In this document: positions 12,103 through 63,694 of the stretch, piece after piece | How the letters are laid out: the number at the start of each line of letters is the position of its first letter | Position numbering within the stretch: position 1 is the stretch's first letter | Assembly (NCBI GenBank): GCA_002224055.1 | Contig: AZLU01000049.1 | Coordinates: forward strand, 40,544-104,543 | DNA: 64,000 nucleotides | Direction: 5' to 3' | Source: Pezizomycotina sp. ARF18 | Lineage: Eukaryota > Ascomycota | Translations under genes and position numbers: made by a program | Notes under the pieces: generated by a model | The model's input: the letters and a program-made list of their open reading frames with translations, nothing else | What the model was told of the DNA's origin: nothing | Database searches by the model: none

Positions 12103-14377
<2,275 letters not shown>

Positions 14378-35365: not shown

Positions 35366-38300
35366 GCAATGTCAAATTTCTGATTTCAAGTTGCTAACTC
35401 GTCGACTTAGTCCTGTCGGTGACGATATAACAATTTTTTTATTTTTATTTTTATTTTTTAAGATTTTTGTGAAGAACAAGGCGCTTGAGCTCAGTACAGA
35501 TTGATATAGCTCTTGCTCTGCACCTGCCTGCATACTACGAATCCAAACGTCTCTATCCCATATCTTCGTCTTTTTTTTTTTTTTTTTTTTAAATCAAATT
35601 CTTTTTTTACGACCAAAAGGCTCGGGAAGAGCATGCACCTACTATCATAAGCTGTTTATAAGTATAGTTTTGTGGAGGAGCAAGTGATAGCGATGTCTTG
35701 TCTACCTCTTCCGGCTCTGCCTCCGCTGCTGCTAGCTGCTCCATATCGTGTAGTGATTCGCCTTTTCTCTTTTTCCTTTTTTTTTCGGCCCTTCCCCACG
35801 ATGATTATATTGCTCGTATGCCTCCCATGAATATAATTTGAATAGAATTCTATTAGATGAATCCATTAAGTATCCTTGTAACCCTTAAAAATAGTGTGTA
35901 ATTAGCAGCACTTTTGAAACGAGTCAATCGTAACTTGGTGGGACATCGACTGAGCCCAAGTCCTTAGTATCTGAACTCTCACGCTTAGAAGCCAAGTTTG
36001 CGAGCCTTTGATTGATCTTGTTCGCTGATACATTCCTTCGAGGCCCGTTTCATTGGCTAGAAAAACATATTTCGTTGTGGATTGCAAAGGGAGCCTTTGA
36101 GGGACGGCTAAACGAAGCCTTCGTAAAACGACTTGATGACTTTTATATAGGGGGAAATATCCTAACCCGGGGGAAGGTTTGTTATTAAAAAAAAAAAAAA
36201 AAAAAGTAATACGGACCTTCTTTGTCGGTAGTTCATAAGCTCCTTCGTGGAGATGATAAATGGACGATAAATGACGAGGAGAGTAAAGAGGATATTGCAA
36301 AAATTTTCGAGGGACCTGCTTCAAGCCATCGGTACGTTGCATAAATTGATTCTGGGTTAATTTGGGCGCCTTGTTCGAGCGTCGATAGGTCCCCTTGCAC
36401 AGGCGTTTTACAGGAGGTTTCCATTGTCGCGCTCTGAATATGATTACCACTCGAGTATACGAAGTCGTAAACACCACGCCTCCAAATCAGCCTTCTCGAA
36501 GCGCTCGAAAACCCCTGCGATACCCGCCCCCAAGACGATTTTGCGTAGTCGACACCTCTTCCTTTTTTTTCTCTTCTTTTGTCAACAGGAGTTTTATTTC
36601 GAGGTGAGCGAACAATAAGCTCTATCTCGATTCCAAGATGCGGCACGAGAAAATTTCCTCTCAAACATTCTCGAACAGACGCACGTCTTTTTCGACATAC
36701 TTCTCCTCTTCCTTCCATTCTTCCTCTCCGAATACGTTCGAAATTGCCCCCGGGCGCACGATCAGGCTAATGTCACGTTTCGCTCCGCTCCCTTTGCTTT
36801 CTTGCCCTCCTGCCTTTTTTTTCCCTTTTTTTCCTTTTTTCCCCCCTCTTCTCCTTCTCCCTCTTCCCCCTATAGCCGTACTCCTCGTACCGGCAGGCGG
36901 GCTCGAGCGTGGGCTCAATCAGCTTAACAAATATAGGACATGGCGGTGAGGGGGCCCATAGGACCGTCTGAGAACCGTGGGGCTTTTGTAGTTTCTCGGC
37001 GATATAATTTGCGGGATATTGGAAGCAGCTATCCGCTTCGCCTCTTGAAAATAAATTTGAAGCACATGCAACATTCCCCGTATGAATATCATGGCATCTG
37101 CACCGTTTCCCGCTCGAAAATGTATACCTATGCCGAAACCGCTGGGAACGTCTAGTCGTCTTCATTTTGAGTTGATGGGAAAGAATTTGAAAATATATCA
37201 GTGTAGGATAACGGGCCAAATCACCATGTTATACTTAATGGATGAATTTCTGTTTTTATGGATTTGACTTACCCCGAATTAGATCTTGGTTTCTCTTATG
37301 CTTCTAAGCGTGGCCTCGAAGCCATTTCTTGAAGAGCCGACCTGCTGCTCTATAGAACTCGAGTATCCACGGAACAAGTTTCAAAAAAAAAAAAAAAAAA
37401 AAAAAAAAACAAGTAATTAATACTAGGGTAAACAATAATAAAAAGGTAAGGAAACACTGGCTCTCTTGACTATTGTGCTAGCTGTTGATAACGGTTGTGT
37501 TTGGCTGCCCTCCCTCATTTGACGGAATCCCCCCTCCCCCCTTCTCTTTTGCTTTCTTTTTTTTTATTCCTATGACACTCGCAGTATCGGTCTCGTAACG
37601 GTGCCAGGGTTGCTATATAGCGACTCGACCTCGATGATTCGACCTTTAAATGATCGGACTAGAAATCGCCTGCATACTTCTCCGTGACGCATGGGCAGTG
37701 GCCGCTTTTGAGACAACACATGGGCTGTTGAGCTACTTCCAAAGCTCTGAAACCGGGGAGGTTCTTTGCGGCTTCAGGTTTAAGCGTGCGGCTGGTAAGA
37801 TTGATCCGAGTATATTTCCCAGGCAAGGCGATTCTCTGATCATCCGCTAACTCTATTCAGACCGACCTGAATATTCACAATGGAGGCACTCTTCTCTTGT
37901 ACTCCCGCCAGTAAAGAGGTAATTCTCTCCCCCGTTCTCCCCAACGGGGAAAAAAAAACTGTACGTACAAGGAGTTCAGTATCGCCGCACCGCAAGCCTA
38001 TGTTCCCCTAAGTTGCTAGTTACTAGCTTGAAAATGTTAACGATATCGCGTCTGAGCCTGTCTAATTATACCGAACGGATGATTTGCTTTGGAGTAGTCT
38101 CACCTAGAGAAGCGGAAATTATCAACGATTTGTTAGGTAAGAAAAAGAAGAAGAAAATGAAGAGGGATTTAAAGTGAGATATAGAGCAAAAGGCATCGGT
38201 CCAGCGAATCACATATATAATGAAAGAATAAAATAAAAGATTCTAAACCCCTATAAAAAGTCCCGAGCTCCAAAATAGCTCTTTAGCTTCAACGCGTGCT

Positions 38301-39251
38301 ACAAATTGGGTGAGATGATTAAAAATGAAAGGGGTATTCCTTCTCAGCGCAGAGGCCAATGTACTTTACAAGATTTTTCTTCTTTTGTATAGGGCCGCGG
38401 GCAGCGTATCACCCCTTCTACAATGCAAAGTCATAGATAGAGGTCTCGGCTGTTAACCGGAATAGGAAGAGGAGGGCCAAGGAAGGACAAGACTGGCTTC
38501 GCCTGAGGCCATGTACGTAATCTTCGGTAATCCGAGATGCTAGGATTCCGCTCTAGATTGCGGGCGTTCGTTCTATCACAGAGATATTTCGCAGCCCGAT
38601 GTTGTAATGTCTTTTTCAATTTTTACAGTCAACGTTGCTACTGCAGCTACAACCCGTGTACATAGCGCTTTTTTTTTTTTTCTTTTTTTAATTATTTATT
38701 AGTCATCGTTGTGTGAAGCTCAAAACCGATTGTACAAGTGTTGAATGATCACTAGACACCAAATAGCTAGCATTGTATATTCCGCTAGATGCAGAGGGTT
38801 TTATTTTCGACAGCGGACTATCTCAGTAGGTTGGGAGAAGCAAAAAAATGTCAAACAAGACGACCAGTTCATTATTCTTCCCCCCCCCCCTTTCCCTCCC
38901 TCCCTCTAATTCTCTCTCCTTTTCCCGTTTACGGCATTAACAACTGATATTGTGAGAAGGAAAAGAAAAGGAAGAAAATATAACTGTATTAAAAGATCCC
39001 TCGGAATTTGATTTGATCCACGTGAAATCCGGAAGTCGAACATACGCTTATTGAAAGATAGTAGACAGGAAAAAGAAAAAAGAGTTAAAGAGATAAAATA
39101 ACAGGAATTAACATTAGTCTAGATTCGGAGGGTTCTAGACTAAAATTAACAGAATCTAAAAAACGAGTCATCAAGGAAATCGTCCTGACCAAGAGGAACA
39201 GATATTCCAGAAGACAGGCAAATTACAGAACATGAGCCTAACGACAGGTAA
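35366..39251. other. Gene-poor region, no assigned gene
   Basis: There are poly-T runs at about 35572-35590 and 38671-38681, poly-A at about 36188-36205 and 37382-37409 (about 28 nt), a C run at 38881-38890, and ATTTTT repeats at 35438-35460. The longest open frame, on the minus strand at 35902-36477 (191 codons), contains a Phe run from the poly-A tract and no recognisable domain. A second overlapping minus frame at 36233-36718 is equally featureless, and the frame 36661-36918 is basic then acidic. One of these could be a fragment of a fast-evolving gene, but I cannot support it. Confidence 0.45.
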
Positions 39252-42200
39252 TTACCCTCGGGTTGGGGCTTTAATTTCAAAAATTCGATCCCATTTCAAA
39301 TTGTTTGTGAAGCCTTCAACCTTAGACATCTTGAGCATTGACGGACCTTAAACGTTGGCGTAATCTGAAGCCGCTTTGTGTTTTTGGGCGTGCAAGCGAT
39401 CCGGAGAGCAACGATCGTCTTCTTGAGATCAAAGTCACCACCGCCGATCGACATGTAACTCAAGGGCCTTCCGGCTGTCTTCTGTACGCGATACAGCCGT
39501 CTGTTAGACAATCTTCTTCGGCACAAATGCCTTTGTCCTCCGGGACAAAGCCCCCGGGCGCGACGGCTTGTGCTTTTTGAAGAATTGAATGGCAGTGGGC
39601 AGAGTATCGACGCCAAGGTCGTCGTCGACTCGAGAAACGTTGGGGAGTACAGGCGGATGACCGTCACCGTGTCGCCATCTATAGAGAGCAAAGATAGTCT
39701 TGTGAGTAATAGGGCAAATCGAAAGCCAATTATTGAGGATATTATTGAGGAGACTTACGTGCCGTGGTGCCTATCTCTAATTTCTCCGATGATGTTGTGT
39801 GCCTTCTCCTTATGGGTCAGGGCCTTTACGAGGCTTAGCAAGATCAGCCTTTGATTGAGACAATCTTCGGGATCGTACTTAAACCCATATATAGGTTTGA
39901 AGTACAAAAACCGAGGCTTCTTGGCGGTGAGGTCCTTCGAGCCTTCGGCAGCAAATTCGAACTGTTCCCTGTCCTTTGAGCCTACGACAGGCAACGGGGG
40001 AGGATTCGTTTTCTGGTTTTTGAAGTGTTAGCTTTGATCTTTCTAGTTCGTCCTAAATTTTCCCGTAGACACTTTTTTTGTACAAAATGACAATGGAAAA
40101 AGGAAAAACAAAAAAAAAAGGAATGAACGAAAACTCTTCTCTGTTCTTTTTTTCCTTCTAAGAGATAAGAGAGGGACAGGGAGTGGTGTTAAAGAGATAG
40201 AGAGTTAGAGAAAGAGAGAGATAAAGAAAAAAAACGGGAAAAAGAAGCCATACTGTTCGAGCCCTCAGACGGTACCATGACCACTCTGTTTTGAATTGTG
40301 TTGTGGTATTCTCTTGCACAAGGCTCACAGGCGCGGGTTCTCCCGGTTGGGTAATGAAATCTGCTTTGACCTCGTGGCCAGGAAACAAACAAATAGGACA
40401 GTTTATTTCTTCGGTGACGAGGGCAATACCAGTGACCGTGAAGTCCGCGTATGAAGTAACGCGGAAGTCATCACCTTTCGCCGCTAGCTCTTCCTCTTCA
40501 GTGTCAGGACCCGAGTCGGGTTCCGGGTTACACGGGCTCGGGTGCTCCCGCAACCATTTGGCCGGAGCGCCGATATTTATCCTGATAGCATCTGCTGCCC
40601 ATTTGTAATTCGTTTCGAACTCCCGGCCCCATGCCGTTTTACATGGACCTCTTGCGGCACCTTGATATTGTAAGTTGTCAAAATGGACACATTTTCGCTT
40701 ACAATGGGCATTCCATTGGCTCCATTTCTGACAAGACAACTGCATCGAGTAGGCCGTTCATTCGCTCGTCGGAGACTTTGCAAATTCTCGTTCCCCTTCT
40801 TGACCGTCGTTTTCGAGGCAACTTCGCTCCAATACAGGCTCGCTAACGCGAGATGTTTTTGCCAGCGTTGCTCACCTGCATGGGCTTTCTCTTCAAAACG
40901 GTATACAGTCAGTCCGCTCCCGAGATGTTCGAAGGAGCACCAGGAGGGATTTCATTGGGCGCCTGGTGGATTAGACAAAATTTAGTTAGTGAATTGGATC
41001 ACATTGGATGCTGAAGAGGACACTTTTATGAATAAATCAAAGCAGTAGGAAGAAAGGAAAGGAAACAAAAATAATATCATGCTTTGTATATAAAGAGAAA
41101 GAGGGAAAGGGGGAAATGATGGGAACTCGCATTATCAGTGTCCGTTGGAGTTCCGAGTGCTTGTATCTGCGACCACACGTTATCGGCGACGGAAGGAACA
41201 TTATTGCCGGAGAACGACAGGTTTTTGAGACCCTGCTGCGGGATAAAAGAAGGCCCCATAAACGCAACGCTCTCAGGAGTAGACTCCTTGCCTGCGACAG
41301 GAAACCCATCGGGAGACACTTGTGGAGATGAGGAAGACTCAGAAAAGGCGATCTTCTTAGGGACGAAGGGAGGCTCAACATAAGCTGTATTGGTAAAGGA
41401 TAATCCGCTACTGGGGAGAGGATCTCGCGAATAAAGACTATCTCCGGTGGAGAGGAAGACGGCTCAGTGGAATTGAGCTGAGAAGAAACTTCCCTGTCGA
41501 CGACAGGACCAACAGTCTTTTGTGGCAATGAGGAAGCGTCAACAAAGATGTCTTCCAGAAGGAAGCTCACTGTCAGCCACATCCGATCCACCAGGAACAT
41601 GGTCGAAAGCAGTCTTCTTAAGAGCTGAAGACTCGGTAAGGAAGCTCCTCTTGAGGGAAGTCTTGCCATCCCGGACAGGCAAGAGTTGGGGCTTAGGAAG
41701 AAAGGTGGCCTTCTCGAGGTGTATCGTCGATCTTATATTTGATTTTAAGATCTATTGAGATAAATAATATTAGAAGCTATTCACGTCTCAATCAAAGGAG
41801 AGGAAAAGAGAAGAAAGGGAAGTAAAGGGGGAGGGGAAAAGGAAACATACCTTGTCTGTATCATTTCGTAAGACGAGAGACATATCTTCAGAAGAAGATT
41901 CCCCGCCTTCGACAGGAGAATACTTAAGCTTAGTAAGGAATGTGTTCCTTCCGTGCCGTTTTCTCCTTCTTGATTTTGAGAGCTATCGAGATAAATTATA
42001 TTAGTATTGAGCTATCGAAATCTTAATGATACATAGGAAAAAAAAAAGGGAAAAAGAAATATACCCGCGACTTAACGTCTGTGTTGCTTCTTGAGACGAG
42101 AGACATATCTTCGAGAGAAGAATACCCGCCTTTGACAGGTAATGTTCATTTTTAGCAAGAAAAATGTCTATTTCATGCTGTTTCGTCTCATTTGTTTTGG

Positions 42201-42669
42201 GAGCTATTGAGACAAATGATATTAGTATTAAGCTATTGAAATCTCAATGGTATACGGAAAGGAAAGAAAGAAGACATACCCCATTTGTTGAATCCAGTTT
42301 ATCTGATCGAAAGTTGACTTTATCGAAGTGTTGACGCTGTGAAGTAGATCGAAATCGATTTTAGTACGAACCACTAACGTATTTGATAAAACGGAGAGAG
42401 GGAGGTTAAAAAGGAAGATATGGGTATACGTTAAGGCGCATTGCGCTATCTAGTTTGTTTTTGAGGTGTCCGAGTTCCATTTCCACGTAATCAAATTTCG
42501 ATAACATGAACTCTTGATTGCGATTCATGGTCGCCACCAAGGCATGGCCTTGCTGCCCCAACAAAATTTTTACTTGAGGCAAAACAATACTTGCAAGAGC
42601 TAGGGAAATGGAATCTCCGATCGCACTTTGAAGCTCCTGGACGAAGCTTCTGCCTTCATGTGAAGACAT
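39252..42669 (-). CDS. Unrecognised multi-exon protein with duplicated exon modules
   Basis: I do not recognise a family. The first exon (42669-42430) encodes a helical N-terminus starting MSSHEGRSFVQELQSAIGDS and a coiled-coil-like segment (FDYVEMELGHLKNKLDSA), ending at a GTATAC donor. A series of small exons follows, each preceded by a similar acceptor (TCTCAATAG or TCTCGATAG at about 42200, 41980 and 41750) and encoding related text, for example FLAKNEHYLSKAG, FLTKLKYSPVEGGESSSE and FLPKPQLLPVRDGKTS. A larger exon (about 41750-41100) has EPPFVPKKIAFSESSSSP and SPDGFPVAGKESTPESV. Further exons carry KWAADAIRINIGAPAKWLRE and NCPICLFPGHEV (about 40600-40380), then PPPLPVVGSKDREQFEFAAE and RFLYFKPIYGFKYDPEDC (about 40000-39870). 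The C-terminus is LKMSKVEGFTNNLKWDRI with TAA at 39252. No signal peptide is seen. Whether this is one gene or two cannot be decided here. Confidence 0.5.
41740..42260 (-). repeat. Tandem intron-exon module, three copies
   Basis: The blocks at about 42200-42255, 41979-42034 and 41750-41800 share the plus-strand core GAGCTATTGAGA (or TATCGAGATAAAT) ATTAGTATT...AGCTATTGAAATCT, at spacings of about 220-230 nt. They mark the 3' ends of three successive introns of the minus-strand gene. The exon sequences that follow are also alignable: CTCCCAAAACAAA, CTCTCAAAATCAA and ATCTTAAAATCAAA. Confidence 0.7.
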
Positions 42670-42927
42670 AGTTGATGAAAGTAGTAGACAATCGTAAGAA
42701 GGGGAAAGAACGAGGTTCTACTATTCTGAGGCAAACTGAAAACAATCTTTAACTTTGTAGAGGAACAGAGAGTTTTTGAGGGGGAATAGTGTACGAGCTT
42801 TAAGAAGTAACAGTAGTATTCCCTCTCACTCCTGGAAATTTGGTTGTGGTTTGCTCTTGGTTGTTGGAAGAGTAGGGGAGTTGAATATTTCATCAAGAAA
42901 GGAAAAATAATAGGTGATTAAATACTG

Positions 42928-42960
<33 letters not shown>

Positions 42961-43073
42961 GGAGAAAAGAGAAATCAATAGCAAATAATAAGGGAACAAT
43001 GAATAGTAACAAGCCCAACAATATTAATAACTTATTCCTTTTCTGGGTCGTGTACCCCCCCCCAAAAAAAAAA

Positions 43074-43106
<33 letters not shown>

Positions 43107-44100
43107 TAAAGATAAGAGCGGGGGAGAGGTTACCTCTATTATCAATGTTATGATGAATATGCCATTCAACGGAGAGATTCATAAATTGGGGGTAACCTAT
43201 TGAATGACCCGAGTAGGGATATTAGAAAAGATTTCATGAGCACTCGTTTAGACACTCCTGGGAAAAAAAAAAAAAAAAAAGGGTTTTTTTAAAGTAAGAA
43301 ATTAAATGATGATGATAATCCGTACAAAGTTATGCTTTAATCATTGGTAAGTGTTCCTCTACGCTCATGAAGATCTAGATGATTGCATCAGTCGTTTGCC
43401 TGTCAAAACACCATTCTTTCATATAGCCTTTCCTTGTCACTGGGTACAGAGTCTCAGCAAACAAGCTCGAAAATTTAGGATGTATTATTGATACGTCACA
43501 TTTCACTTATCTTAAGAAGCACTACTTCTAAGCAGATATATTCTTATGGCGATTATTAGTAACTATTCCTTCTTTCGAAACTGCGGCAACAACTGCTACT
43601 CTCGTACTCGTTTAGATATCTATATCGAGCTGCCTCGCTTAATTGTATTTCGATCGTGCAATCGACGTTGGTCAAGTGTTCTTTTGCACGCAACATTTTA
43701 TTTTAATTTATTTTATTCTATTTTTAAGAAAAGACAGAAAGAAAGAAAGAAAAGATGGGGCCGAGCGTCGGGAAATCCAAGGCTTAAGTGCTTTATACCA
43801 TCAAGATAAAAGTAAATATACTCAACGTTGAAGCCTGCGACGTAAACGCTTACGCTAAAACTCTTTGGTATTATCATGTCGCGAAAAGGAGACGACGAAC
43901 ACGCCAAGGAATACGATTACTTAAGTACCCGTCTTTTCCAACCTCTAGTATGATGTGAGACCGCTATACTACTAAGTACGATGATACTTACTTAATAGAG
44001 GGCCATGGCTCGGAGCACGTCCAAGGATAGCTAGGCGGGGACCTGTCTTCACGTACAACAAAGCACCCAAAACCGCTTGGGGTCTCAAATAATATATATT
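42670..44100. other. Spacer between divergent copies, microsatellite-rich
   Basis: This holds a poly-T of about 25 nt (42936-42960), a C9A12 block followed by (AAT)n at 43056-43107, poly-A at 43262-43280, and (GAAA)n near 43736-43755. No gene recognised. It would be the shared upstream region of the minus-strand gene and the inverted fragment. Confidence 0.5.
43072..43107. repeat. (AAT)n microsatellite
   Basis: About eleven tandem AAT/ATA units follow a C9 and A12 homopolymer pair. Confidence 0.9.
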
Positions 44101-44103
44101 TTT

Positions 44104-44325
44104 TGAAAATACCACCTTCGAGCCGAAGAAGACGATCGTTGTTTTGCAAGATCGGCTGATCGCGTACACGCCCAGGGTATGAATCGACTTCTGATTGCGC
44201 CAACGACTAGGATTGGTCATTATCTCAAATTGTCCAAGATTGAGGGCTTTACGAATAACTTAAAATGGGATAGAATTTTGAGATTAAAGACAAAATCCGG
44301 CACGAATAGCCTGTTTCTTCACTAG
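44104..44325 (+). pseudogene. Inverted partial paralog of the 39.3-42.7 kb gene (C-terminal block)
   Basis: On the plus strand this reads FEPKKTIVVLQDRLIAYTP, then after one frame change RLLIAPTTRIGHYLKL and SKIEGFTNNLKWDRI, ending SLFLH with TAG at 44323-44325. The minus-strand gene has DLKKTIVALRIACTPKN, KRLQITPTF and SKVEGFTNNLKWDRI at 39440-39280. Across the shared 15-codon block the two copies differ in nine codons, eight of them synonymous and one Ile/Val. No N-terminal partner exon was found upstream, so it is either a truncated duplicate or the last exon of a paralog whose other exons I cannot recognise. Confidence 0.6.
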
Positions 44326-45646
44326 TATCCTATCTCTTCACCGTAGTTTCCACTATCCTATTTTCTTTTGGTTATCTTAATACTTCCTTATTTTCTCTTT
44401 TTTGAAACTTTATCGGGAAGGATTGGAAGGAGACAAAACTTTTGTCTACAATCAACTTCATTCATTTCGCTTTTACATGGCAGATTTCGTGACTTTGTCA
44501 CGATATGAACTATAATACTAGTACGAGATATCGCCATAAAAAGCAAGGTAAAACAGAACCGTCAATATTTCCGTAAACAGGTATACATCGGCCTCTAGGA
44601 CATCCTTTTCTCGATCGACTTATATTTCTGATGGACTGGCTATACTTCTCAACTGTTTAATATATCTCGAAGTTGAGGGATGTATCTATATATATTTAGG
44701 CGTTCCTGAGCGTTTGTCATTTCGGTTCTTAGAAGGCGCTTAAGCAACAATGGTATCACCTAAAGTAAATATTTTCTTTTTTTTTTCGCTCTCTCTCTCT
44801 CTCCCCCTTCGTTATTTCTTCTCCTCTTTGCTTAACGCCGATCTTTCGAAGCCAAATATGAATTTTAATAAAATAAACGATGAACAGGCGTCTACTGAAA
44901 TTTCCATGAGTGTTTACACAGTTATACATCTCCCTTTGCTTTTCAGTTACAGGCCGTTTTTCTTTTTAATTCTTTCCTCAAACTACTTTATATATGCAAG
45001 CGAGGATTTTCCACAACAAGGGATAGATAACATGCAAGACTGCAAGGGTGTACATCTCGGTCGCGTTCTCAGTCCTTTTCCTTGTTTCAGCCGGTCTACT
45101 GAATTGGCGGTTCTCCAAAGCCAAAAAAAAAAAAAAAAAAAAAAATATCGACTTGTATTCTTTCTATAGATTGATTAAATTTCTAGAAAAAAAAGAAAAA
45201 AAACGTCCGGAGCTATCTCTATTTCATTTCCAAACGGCCCACAGAAAGGACAGCCAAAAACAGAAAAAAAGGGGGAATAGGAAGACTGTTTCTTTTTTTT
45301 TTTTTTTTTTTTTTTCTATCTTTTTTTGCCTAAACTTCTTCCCGTTTCCACTTCTTTCGCGTCTCCACAAATTGTAAACCAAACTAATGCAGCTGCCAGC
45401 AGCGCCGAGAGTTTGGGTCTACTTTTTTCTGCTGCGAGTTACATGGGGGTTGAACTTGTATTCCAATTTTTCCGACCAATTGGATGACTGTGGACACGAT
45501 AGGCCCCCTTGTACTTTGTATTTTCATCGGTTGAAGGCTGCCGAGAAATTGCAATTTAGCAGCGGTGGACCCCTTTCTCTACTAATTTACAGGTTATGAC
45601 TACTTATGTCTTTGTCTACATCTTATTGCTCCTGCTTGAGCACCAA

Positions 45647-45679
<33 letters not shown>

Positions 45680-45917
45680 CCATCTGCTGTCTTTCGTCTT
45701 CTCTTTTGAACCACGCTCCTTTTGTTTTTTGTTCGTTGCTCTTCCTCTTGTGTTATTTTACCTATACCGGAGATTTTGTTTTCTTGTTGTTCTTTACGTT
45801 CTTAAAGTAGTAATAATACTATTCTTATCTTAAATGAAACGCGGATCTTAGTCTATCGTGGAACAAAAAAACGAATCGCCAAACTCTCGGGCCTTTGTAC
45901 GCTGACAAGGAAGCTTC
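44326..45917. other. Intergenic region upstream of the GH47 gene
   Basis: T-rich, with long homopolymers at about 45122-45144 (A), 45293-45316 (T) and 45653-45679 (T), plus (TC)n at about 44791-44802. The open frames at 44750-45377 are runs of Phe, Ser and Lys made by these tracts. No gene recognised. Confidence 0.5.
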
Positions 45918-48339
<2,422 letters not shown>

Positions 48340-61441: not shown

Positions 61442-63694
61442 TTACCTAGCCATGTAACCAGCACCTTCTAACCAAGGAAGTCTCGGACCGCTTCCTCTCG
61501 TACTTCTCGATCTTATCTTCATGCTGTAACGTGAGGCCAATGTCGTCAAGACCGTTTACAAGGCAGTGTTTGCGGACGAGTCTACATCAAACTTGGCAAG
61601 CACCTCACCGTTGGCGTCCTTGATGCACTGCTCGGGCAGGTCAATCTCGAGTTCTTTGCCGGCTTCGGCTTCCTTTGCTAAACGATCTACGGTAGCTTGA
61701 TTCTCGATGGGATTGGAGCATGCCGTTCTTGAATGTATTGTTGAAGAGATGTCTGCGAAGCTAGGAGCTATAACGCACTGATACCAAAGTCGAGCAGGGC
61801 CCAGGGGCATGCTCACGACTAGATCCGCAGCCAAAGTTATCGCCGGTGCAGACAAGGATCTTGCATTCCTGTAGGGTTCCTTGTTAAGGATAAAGTCGGG
61901 TTCCTCTTCATCCTTCGTGCCGGGCTTGTATCTCAGAGGGTGGAAGAGAGCCTTGCCGAGACCTGTCCGCTTGATTGTTTTAAGGAACTGCTTGGGAATT
62001 ATGGCGTCCGTGTCGACGTTGGCCCTATGCAAGGGTGCAGCGATACCTTTCCAAATTGTGAACTTGGTAGACCGCTACGCCTTGATCTTGCTTGTCCGCC
62101 GCCTCGGTTATGGTGGAGATTCTCACCTGAGGGACGTCCATGATCTTGTCGAGGTCTTCTTCGTCGCTCGGATCTCGTGCCGCCCTCCTGGGCAATAGCG
62201 ACGTGACCTCGCTTTGCCCGCAGCTCACTATCACCAAGGTCTTTAGGGTCTTGGAGTTCGCGGACGTCGGCGAGCTTACCAACGATGGCAGCAGCGGCAG
62301 CCATTGCAGGTGACATTAGGTGTGTCCTGCCGCCGGCGCCTTGGCGTCCTTCAATAGTTCCTGTTGCTTGTGCTGGCGCAACGTTCCTGAGGGAGGGATA
62401 TCCGGGTTCATGCCGAGAGCACGATACTGCAACCGGCTTCCCTCCACTCGAAACCAGCATCGATAAAGATCCGGTCAAGTCCTTCAGCTTGTGCTTGTTT
62501 CCGGACGAGACCAGAGCCAGGGACATCATAGCACGCTTGATATTCGGGGCTACTTTAACGACCTTAACGATCTTCGAAGCAGCCGCCAAGGTCTTCTATG
62601 CGGGCGTTGTTGCAATGAGCCGATAAAAGATCTTGTCCACCTGAACGTCTTTCATGGGAGTGTTCCGGCTCGAGGCCCATATATTTGAGGGCATCCTCGA
62701 CGCCCTTTACGCTTGCAGGATCCTCAAAATCTTTCGGGTCTGGAACCTTGCCGGTGATCGCCACGACATCTTTGAGGTGATGTACCCCACGAGACCGTTG
62801 GTGCGATATCCTTAGCGTCGATGTAAACTTCCTTCTCGAACTTTGCGTCCGGGTCGGTTTTGGAGGGATCTCCAGTACTTGACGGCACGGCCGCCAGTCA
62901 GCGGAGGCATCAAACCGGAGCCAGCGGTCTGTTCTTGAGGTATTCAAAGGTGATATCGTCGGGGCGATCAGCCGGCTCGGGCTCCGCCTTCGATGGACAT
63001 GTGCACACCGACATCCTGGCTTCCATGCTCCAGCTCCTTGACACAAGAACCGCAGAACTCGATGAACACATCCAGTACCTCCGGCATGGGACCGATCACG
63101 CCGATGGCATGCAGGATGGCATCTTTCGAGGTGACTCGCGGGGTTGAGAGCACCGTCGATCTGATCTTCATGTTCTTCGCCTTCTTTGTTATGATGGTCT
63201 GAGTTGCGAGGACGTGCTCGAACCTCGCTGGTTTCAATACCGAAGGCAAGGGCCCCGAAGGCGCGTGTGTGGAAGTGTGGGAGTCACCGCAGACGACTGT
63301 GGTACCTGGCAGGGTGAAACCTTGCTCGGGCCCAATGATGTGGACGATACCCTGGCGCTCATCGTCGAGGCCAAAGTAAGTGAGCTTGTGGGTTGATGTT
63401 GTCCTCGAGGGTCATGCACTGAAGCCTCGAGTCGTCTCCTCGATTAAGGATTTAACGTTCTTGTACGATTTCCGGCTGGAGGTGGGGACATTGTATCGAC
63501 GGGATAGCGAGGGTGCAATCCGGCCGCCGACACTCTGTTAGCGTTCTTCAGGCCCTCGAATGCTTGTGGAGAGGTGACCTCGTGCACCAGGTGCCGGTCA
63601 ATGTAGATGGTAGTGGTTTGCCTTCAGAGAAGACGACATGGTCTTCGAAGACCTTGTCGTAAAGTTGTTCTCGGTCCTTTCTCACACCAGGCAT
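61442..63694 (-). CDS. LEU1: 3-isopropylmalate dehydratase (isopropylmalate isomerase), fused large and small domains
   Basis: This [4Fe-4S] enzyme isomerises 2- to 3-isopropylmalate in leucine synthesis. Fungi carry the bacterial LeuC and LeuD parts on one chain. The start [20 protein letters not shown] at 63694 is followed by IDRHL-type text, [11 protein letters not shown], and the [20 protein letters not shown] equivalent then SHT (63370-63290). Next are [49 protein letters not shown] and [18 protein letters not shown] carries the region after the cluster cysteine (about 62610), and [16 protein letters not shown] comes at about 62300. The small domain has [70 protein letters not shown] and [20 protein letters not shown]. 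It ends [10 protein letters not shown] with TAA at 61442. No intron was found. Many one-base losses are present. Total is about 750-770 residues, as expected. Confidence 0.95.

Follow-up and report, generated by a model that had tools for sequence, protein, structure and literature searches.

The window analysed here, a 64-kb stretch of DNA taken as fungal on account of its gene content, short introns and TACTAA-like branch signals, holds two copies of a short sequence that lie about 4.7 kb apart in opposite orientation, and this pair is genuine but ordinary, being probably an inverted partial duplicate of the 3' end of an orphan gene. The homology of the copies, their occurrence at two reported places, a core that differs mostly by silent changes and the lack of relatives in the searched data are established. 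For the fuller account, in which a single-copy, fast-evolving orphan gene on the minus strand had part of its 3' end copied in inverted orientation to positions 44116-44299 and in which the frame breaks are mainly assembly errors, we see about an even chance.

According to this account, the gene would run from 42669 down to about 39250 on the minus strand, with several short exons and internal repeats, and its last 175 bp or so would have been copied to a place about 1.4 kb upstream of the gene start. The plus copy would derive from the minus copy as a fragment that perhaps served temporarily as an exon or a small open reading frame and would now be decaying, and in the core selection would have preserved a short C-terminal peptide motif, the remainder having drifted. 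The breaks in the reading frames would be attributed mainly to indel errors of the assembly.

Two inverted copies of a short stretch

The minus copy, at 39259-39434 on the minus strand and thus at the 3' end of the probable gene, aligns locally with 44116-44299 on the plus strand, which lies within a stretch that stays open for 72 codons (44107-44325). Identical bases make up 130 of the 174 aligned, 26 of the 44 mismatches are transitions, and the gaps of this local alignment (174 columns) comprise 9, 1, 1 and 1 bases. The pair was also found by blastn (118/166 identical, E 2e-17), was recovered as the inverted arms I1 and I6, and is one of the three self-matches kept in a self-comparison of 84 kb (71% over 166 nt), in which seven low-complexity rows were dropped from ten matches. 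Searches of the genome with DNA and peptide queries (46,361,250 bases in 408 contigs, the window lying on contig C49) report the minus and the plus copy as the only two places among the best candidates scored, very common words being skipped. The earlier note had proposed a search of the rest of the genome, and its claim of a family rests on these two copies.

In the 200 nt that flank the copies no DNA homology was detected, as 256 of 1000 shuffles scored as high for the 3' flanks and 708 of 1000 for the 5' flanks, which gives the plus copy the appearance of a fragment. What had been called an inverted gene pair therefore stands as an inverted pair, while "gene pair" says too much. Comparison of the copies as peptides returned the known block at E 1.6e-11 and 1.5e-4; the remaining matches have E values of 0.002 or worse, and most of them are short or of low complexity. 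One of these weak matches, a hydrophobic run of 26 residues at E 0.002, lies just 3' of both copies where the DNA itself does not align, and could hint at a longer homology between them.

Apparent selection on a 15-codon core

Within the aligned stretch lies a core of 15 codons, SKVEGFTNNLKWDRI at 39282-39326 on the minus strand and SKIEGFTNNLKWDRI at 44233-44277 on the plus strand, for which the two copies give the consensus SK[VI]EGFTNNLKWDRI. Nine of these codons differ, eight silently and one by an exchange of Val for Ile, exactly as had been claimed. A pairwise codon model, for which blocks were joined across indels and frames picked by hand, gives an omega of 0.051 for the 17-codon block from LK.SK to DR (LR 14.4, p 0.0001). 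Omega is 1.02 in the 31 codons that precede this block and 1.10 in the 38 codons that do not belong to it; over the full 55 codons it is 0.48, which is not clearly below 1 (p 0.057). The proposal that both copies were translated and selected as protein is thus supported in the core, with its omega of 0.05, and loses its footing in the remainder, where a dN/dS near 1, which the earlier note itself had named as a ground against its proposal when found over a longer alignment, is what was obtained.

When neutral evolution was simulated, a 15-codon stretch with at least eight silent changes and at most one replacement arose in 4 of 5000 runs; the simulation scanned six frames and hence takes into account that frame and stretch were chosen, though not that this locus was picked out of 64 kb. 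Given the choice of frame and stretch, the core pattern is beyond chance. If the plus copy had evolved neutrally, the 17-codon core should have gathered about 7 to 10 replacements, yet it shows 2 (P 0.003 to 0.025), and if both copies had done so, two or fewer would have a P below 0.0001, although these Poisson figures are liberal, as they ignore the transition bias. Since the replacements are too few for a neutral plus copy, constraint on both copies is favoured. The selection signal is real but small and confined to the core, which may be a conserved peptide motif.

Reading frames and probable assembly errors

The earlier note had treated the motifs KKTIV, RL.I.PT and SK.EGF as a single block, and this does not hold, as no single open frame contains all three in either copy. 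The minus copy carries KKTIV and RLQITPT in one frame and SKVEGF in another; the plus copy carries KKTIV in one frame and RLLIAPT together with SKIEGF in another. A reading with EDDRC..DR.HAQ and SK.EGF sharing a frame in each copy is possible and was rejected, because it puts stops in the minus copy.

Conserved housekeeping genes of this assembly are broken as well and show about 4-15 apparent frameshifts per kb. In the window, mtHSP70 (12502-14323, plus strand) has 7 in 1.82 kb and LEU1 (61488-63664, minus strand) 21 in 1.41 kb and 6 in 0.58 kb, and on another contig a further HSP70 gene (C70:64300-66085) has 15 in 1.79 kb, a count that includes one intron. The counts come from a simple custom aligner, to which divergent stretches may add spurious frameshifts and whose sole control, E. 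coli DnaK against its own gene, gave 0 frameshifts. A query with E. coli LeuC matches a single place in the genome, with all four of its matches on C49, and because there is one place only, error explains the frame breaks better than decay. The simplest reading of the broken conserved genes is that the assembly contains indel errors, roughly 4 to 15 in each kb. Over the 360 nt of paired sequence this rate predicts about 1.4 to 5 indels, and three gaps of 1 base are observed, so that the frames of the two copies speak neither for intactness nor for decay.

A paper on unpolished long-read fungal assemblies with indel-broken genes stresses homopolymer errors of nanopore reads (PMC7500977). The assembly studied here resembles those in the frame breaks in conserved genes, and differs in that its frameshifts are not linked to homopolymers: for the 34 frameshifts of mtHSP70 and LEU1 the mean longest run is 2.62, against 2.48 in controls. 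Because of the apparent indel errors, reading frames and exon limits in this assembly are unreliable and must not be taken at face value, and claims of a pseudogene, a frameshift or a new family made from the window need polished reads.

Coding evidence for the probable minus-strand gene and the plus-strand fragment

The probable orphan gene, or the remains of one, was read piecewise on the minus strand between 39250 and 42669, with exon limits set by eye from GT..AG and TACTAA-like signals. A first exon beginning MSSHEG would lie at 42430-42669, followed by pieces at 41851-41982, 41542-41751, 41380-41552, 41134-41406, 40577-40951, 40260-40640, 39771-40009 and 39513-39691 and by the 3' stretch. 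Among the best candidates scored, a DNA search with 39240-42720 recovered the region itself and the plus-strand fragment only, and the pieces used as protein queries were single-copy in the genome, one of these searches having been made with the second exon in a frame later judged less likely.

Codon usage was scored against medians of 0.20 for coding pieces of 40 codons and -0.31 for open non-coding pieces, and pieces were called coding-like above both the 25th percentile of coding and the 95th percentile of non-coding pieces, each 0.09 at 40 codons. The nine pieces of the minus-strand gene score between -0.08 and 0.16; two of them (0.12 and 0.16) are clearly coding-like, and the other seven, at -0.08 to 0.03, lie where coding and non-coding sequences overlap. 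Within 41752-42300 on the minus strand, inside the gene, exon-plus-intron units are repeated in tandem at a spacing of about 220-231 nt, with 97 of 128 bases identical in the exon part (75.8%) and 128 of 155 in the intron part (82.6%). That the exons of these units are conserved no better than their introns offers no support for a constrained gene. The minus strand thus offers a possible orphan fungal gene whose coding status is weakly supported. The motifs PKK and PV.G recur by eye at 40009-39771, 41406-41134 and 41751-41542 on the minus strand, some of these pairs also appearing in the peptide comparison, and suggest a degenerate internal repeat in the gene.

For the two copies themselves the codon usage is mixed. 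The plus core (44230-44298) scores -0.30 and is non-coding-like, the piece with KKTIV in the plus copy reaches 0.36 and is coding-like, and the minus core piece scores 0.10; the minus KKTIV piece, which had been scored in a frame other than that of KKTIV, was left out of the comparison. A possible ATG at 44179 in the plus copy would give 48 residues. Plus-strand coding scores do not exceed 0.01 in any scoring window between 42720 and 44040, with a training set that was partly in wrong frames (37 stops), and the structure predicted for the 72-residue plus-strand reading frame is uninformative (mean pLDDT 39.9).

Searches for known families and relatives

Pieces of both copies and of the minus-strand gene matched 0 families in Pfam and NCBIfam (7/7, 6/6 and 10/10 pieces and one protein of a set of five), searches whose sensitivity is lowered by indel errors; of the four other proteins of that set, which come from elsewhere, three matched GH47. 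In the PDB the pieces gave chance-level matches only (one at E 1, two at E 1.3) or none. Viral and prokaryote relatives were rejected too: none of the pattern stretches obtained in IMG/VR with two pieces (14 and 55) or in GTDB with one piece (299) encodes a relative, in collections where a fungal gene is hardly expected. An RNA element was rejected as a candidate, with no Rfam match at the gathering score in 38000-46000. These results bear out the earlier statement that no known domain is recognisable in the pieces, and neither a known transposon nor a known family, which had been named as grounds against the proposal, was matched in Pfam or NCBIfam. The further step to an undescribed protein family agrees with the lack of a known family and leans on two copies in one genome; to call the core such a family is premature. 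That SK[VI]EGFTNNLKWDRI would be the C-terminal motif of an undescribed fungal family, represented by a full gene and a minimal, still-translated copy on the opposite strand, we regard as improbable.

Weighing the explanations

The account of a partial copy of an orphan gene's 3' end is drawn from the two copies reported genome-wide, the unaligned 200-nt flanks, the omega of 0.05 in the core against 1.02 before it, and the codon usage of 0.10 in the minus core against -0.30 in the plus core. It is weakened by the small number of replacements if the plus copy were neutral together with the score of 0.36 of the plus KKTIV piece, by the seven weak pieces of the minus-strand gene and the tandem exons, and by the weak peptide match 3' of both copies. 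The first of these points belongs to a reading in which both copies are expressed and functional members of an undescribed family under purifying selection, the plus copy serving as a last exon or as a small reading frame of its own. The low omega of the core, the 4 of 5000 neutral simulations that were as extreme and the 72 open codons of the plus frame also agree with it, but the omega of 1.02 to 1.10 over the remainder, the non-coding-like score of the plus core, the low plus-strand scores between 42720 and 44040 (obtained with the partly misframed training set) and the presence of only two copies argue against it, and we hold it to be unlikely.

Conversely, both copies might be what remains of an old duplication, neutral or in decay, the silent core being a chance run picked post hoc from the 64-kb window. 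This would fit the omega of 0.48 overall (p 0.057) and of about 1 outside the core, the tandem exons that are less alike (75.8%) than the introns (82.6%) and the weak coding scores of 7/9 minus-strand pieces; however, the core pattern arose in so few neutral simulations, two or fewer replacements would be so rare with both copies neutral (P below 0.0001) and the minus core scores 0.10 in codon usage, which leaves chance relics a doubtful explanation, if one with some claim to attention. Far less probable still is that the pair forms the terminal inverted repeats of a DNA transposon, old and about 5 kb long, which carries the minus-strand gene. The inverted arms do enclose a gene, and ACAGG/CCTGT occurs near both outer ends, but no target-site duplication was found (39215-39265 and 44290-44345 share no direct repeat longer than 5 bases, and that one does not sit at both arm ends, although an old element may have lost its duplication), no transposase family was matched in Pfam by pieces of the copies and the gene, and the element is single-copy in the genome among the best candidates scored, with very common words skipped; on these three grounds transposon ends were rejected.

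Comparison with known systems and surroundings

The minus-strand candidate resembles orphan (lineage-restricted) fungal genes in having no recognisable domain, short exons, internal repeats and a single copy, and differs from them in the weak support for its coding status. Like other duplicated gene fragments, the pair consists of one 3' stretch copied locally and in inverted orientation with 200-nt flanks devoid of DNA homology, whereas the changes in its 15-codon core have remained mostly silent. Conservation of the core in related fungi would mark it as a small undescribed domain.

A gene of the GH47 (alpha-mannosidase) family adjoins the pair at 45906-48138 on the plus strand.
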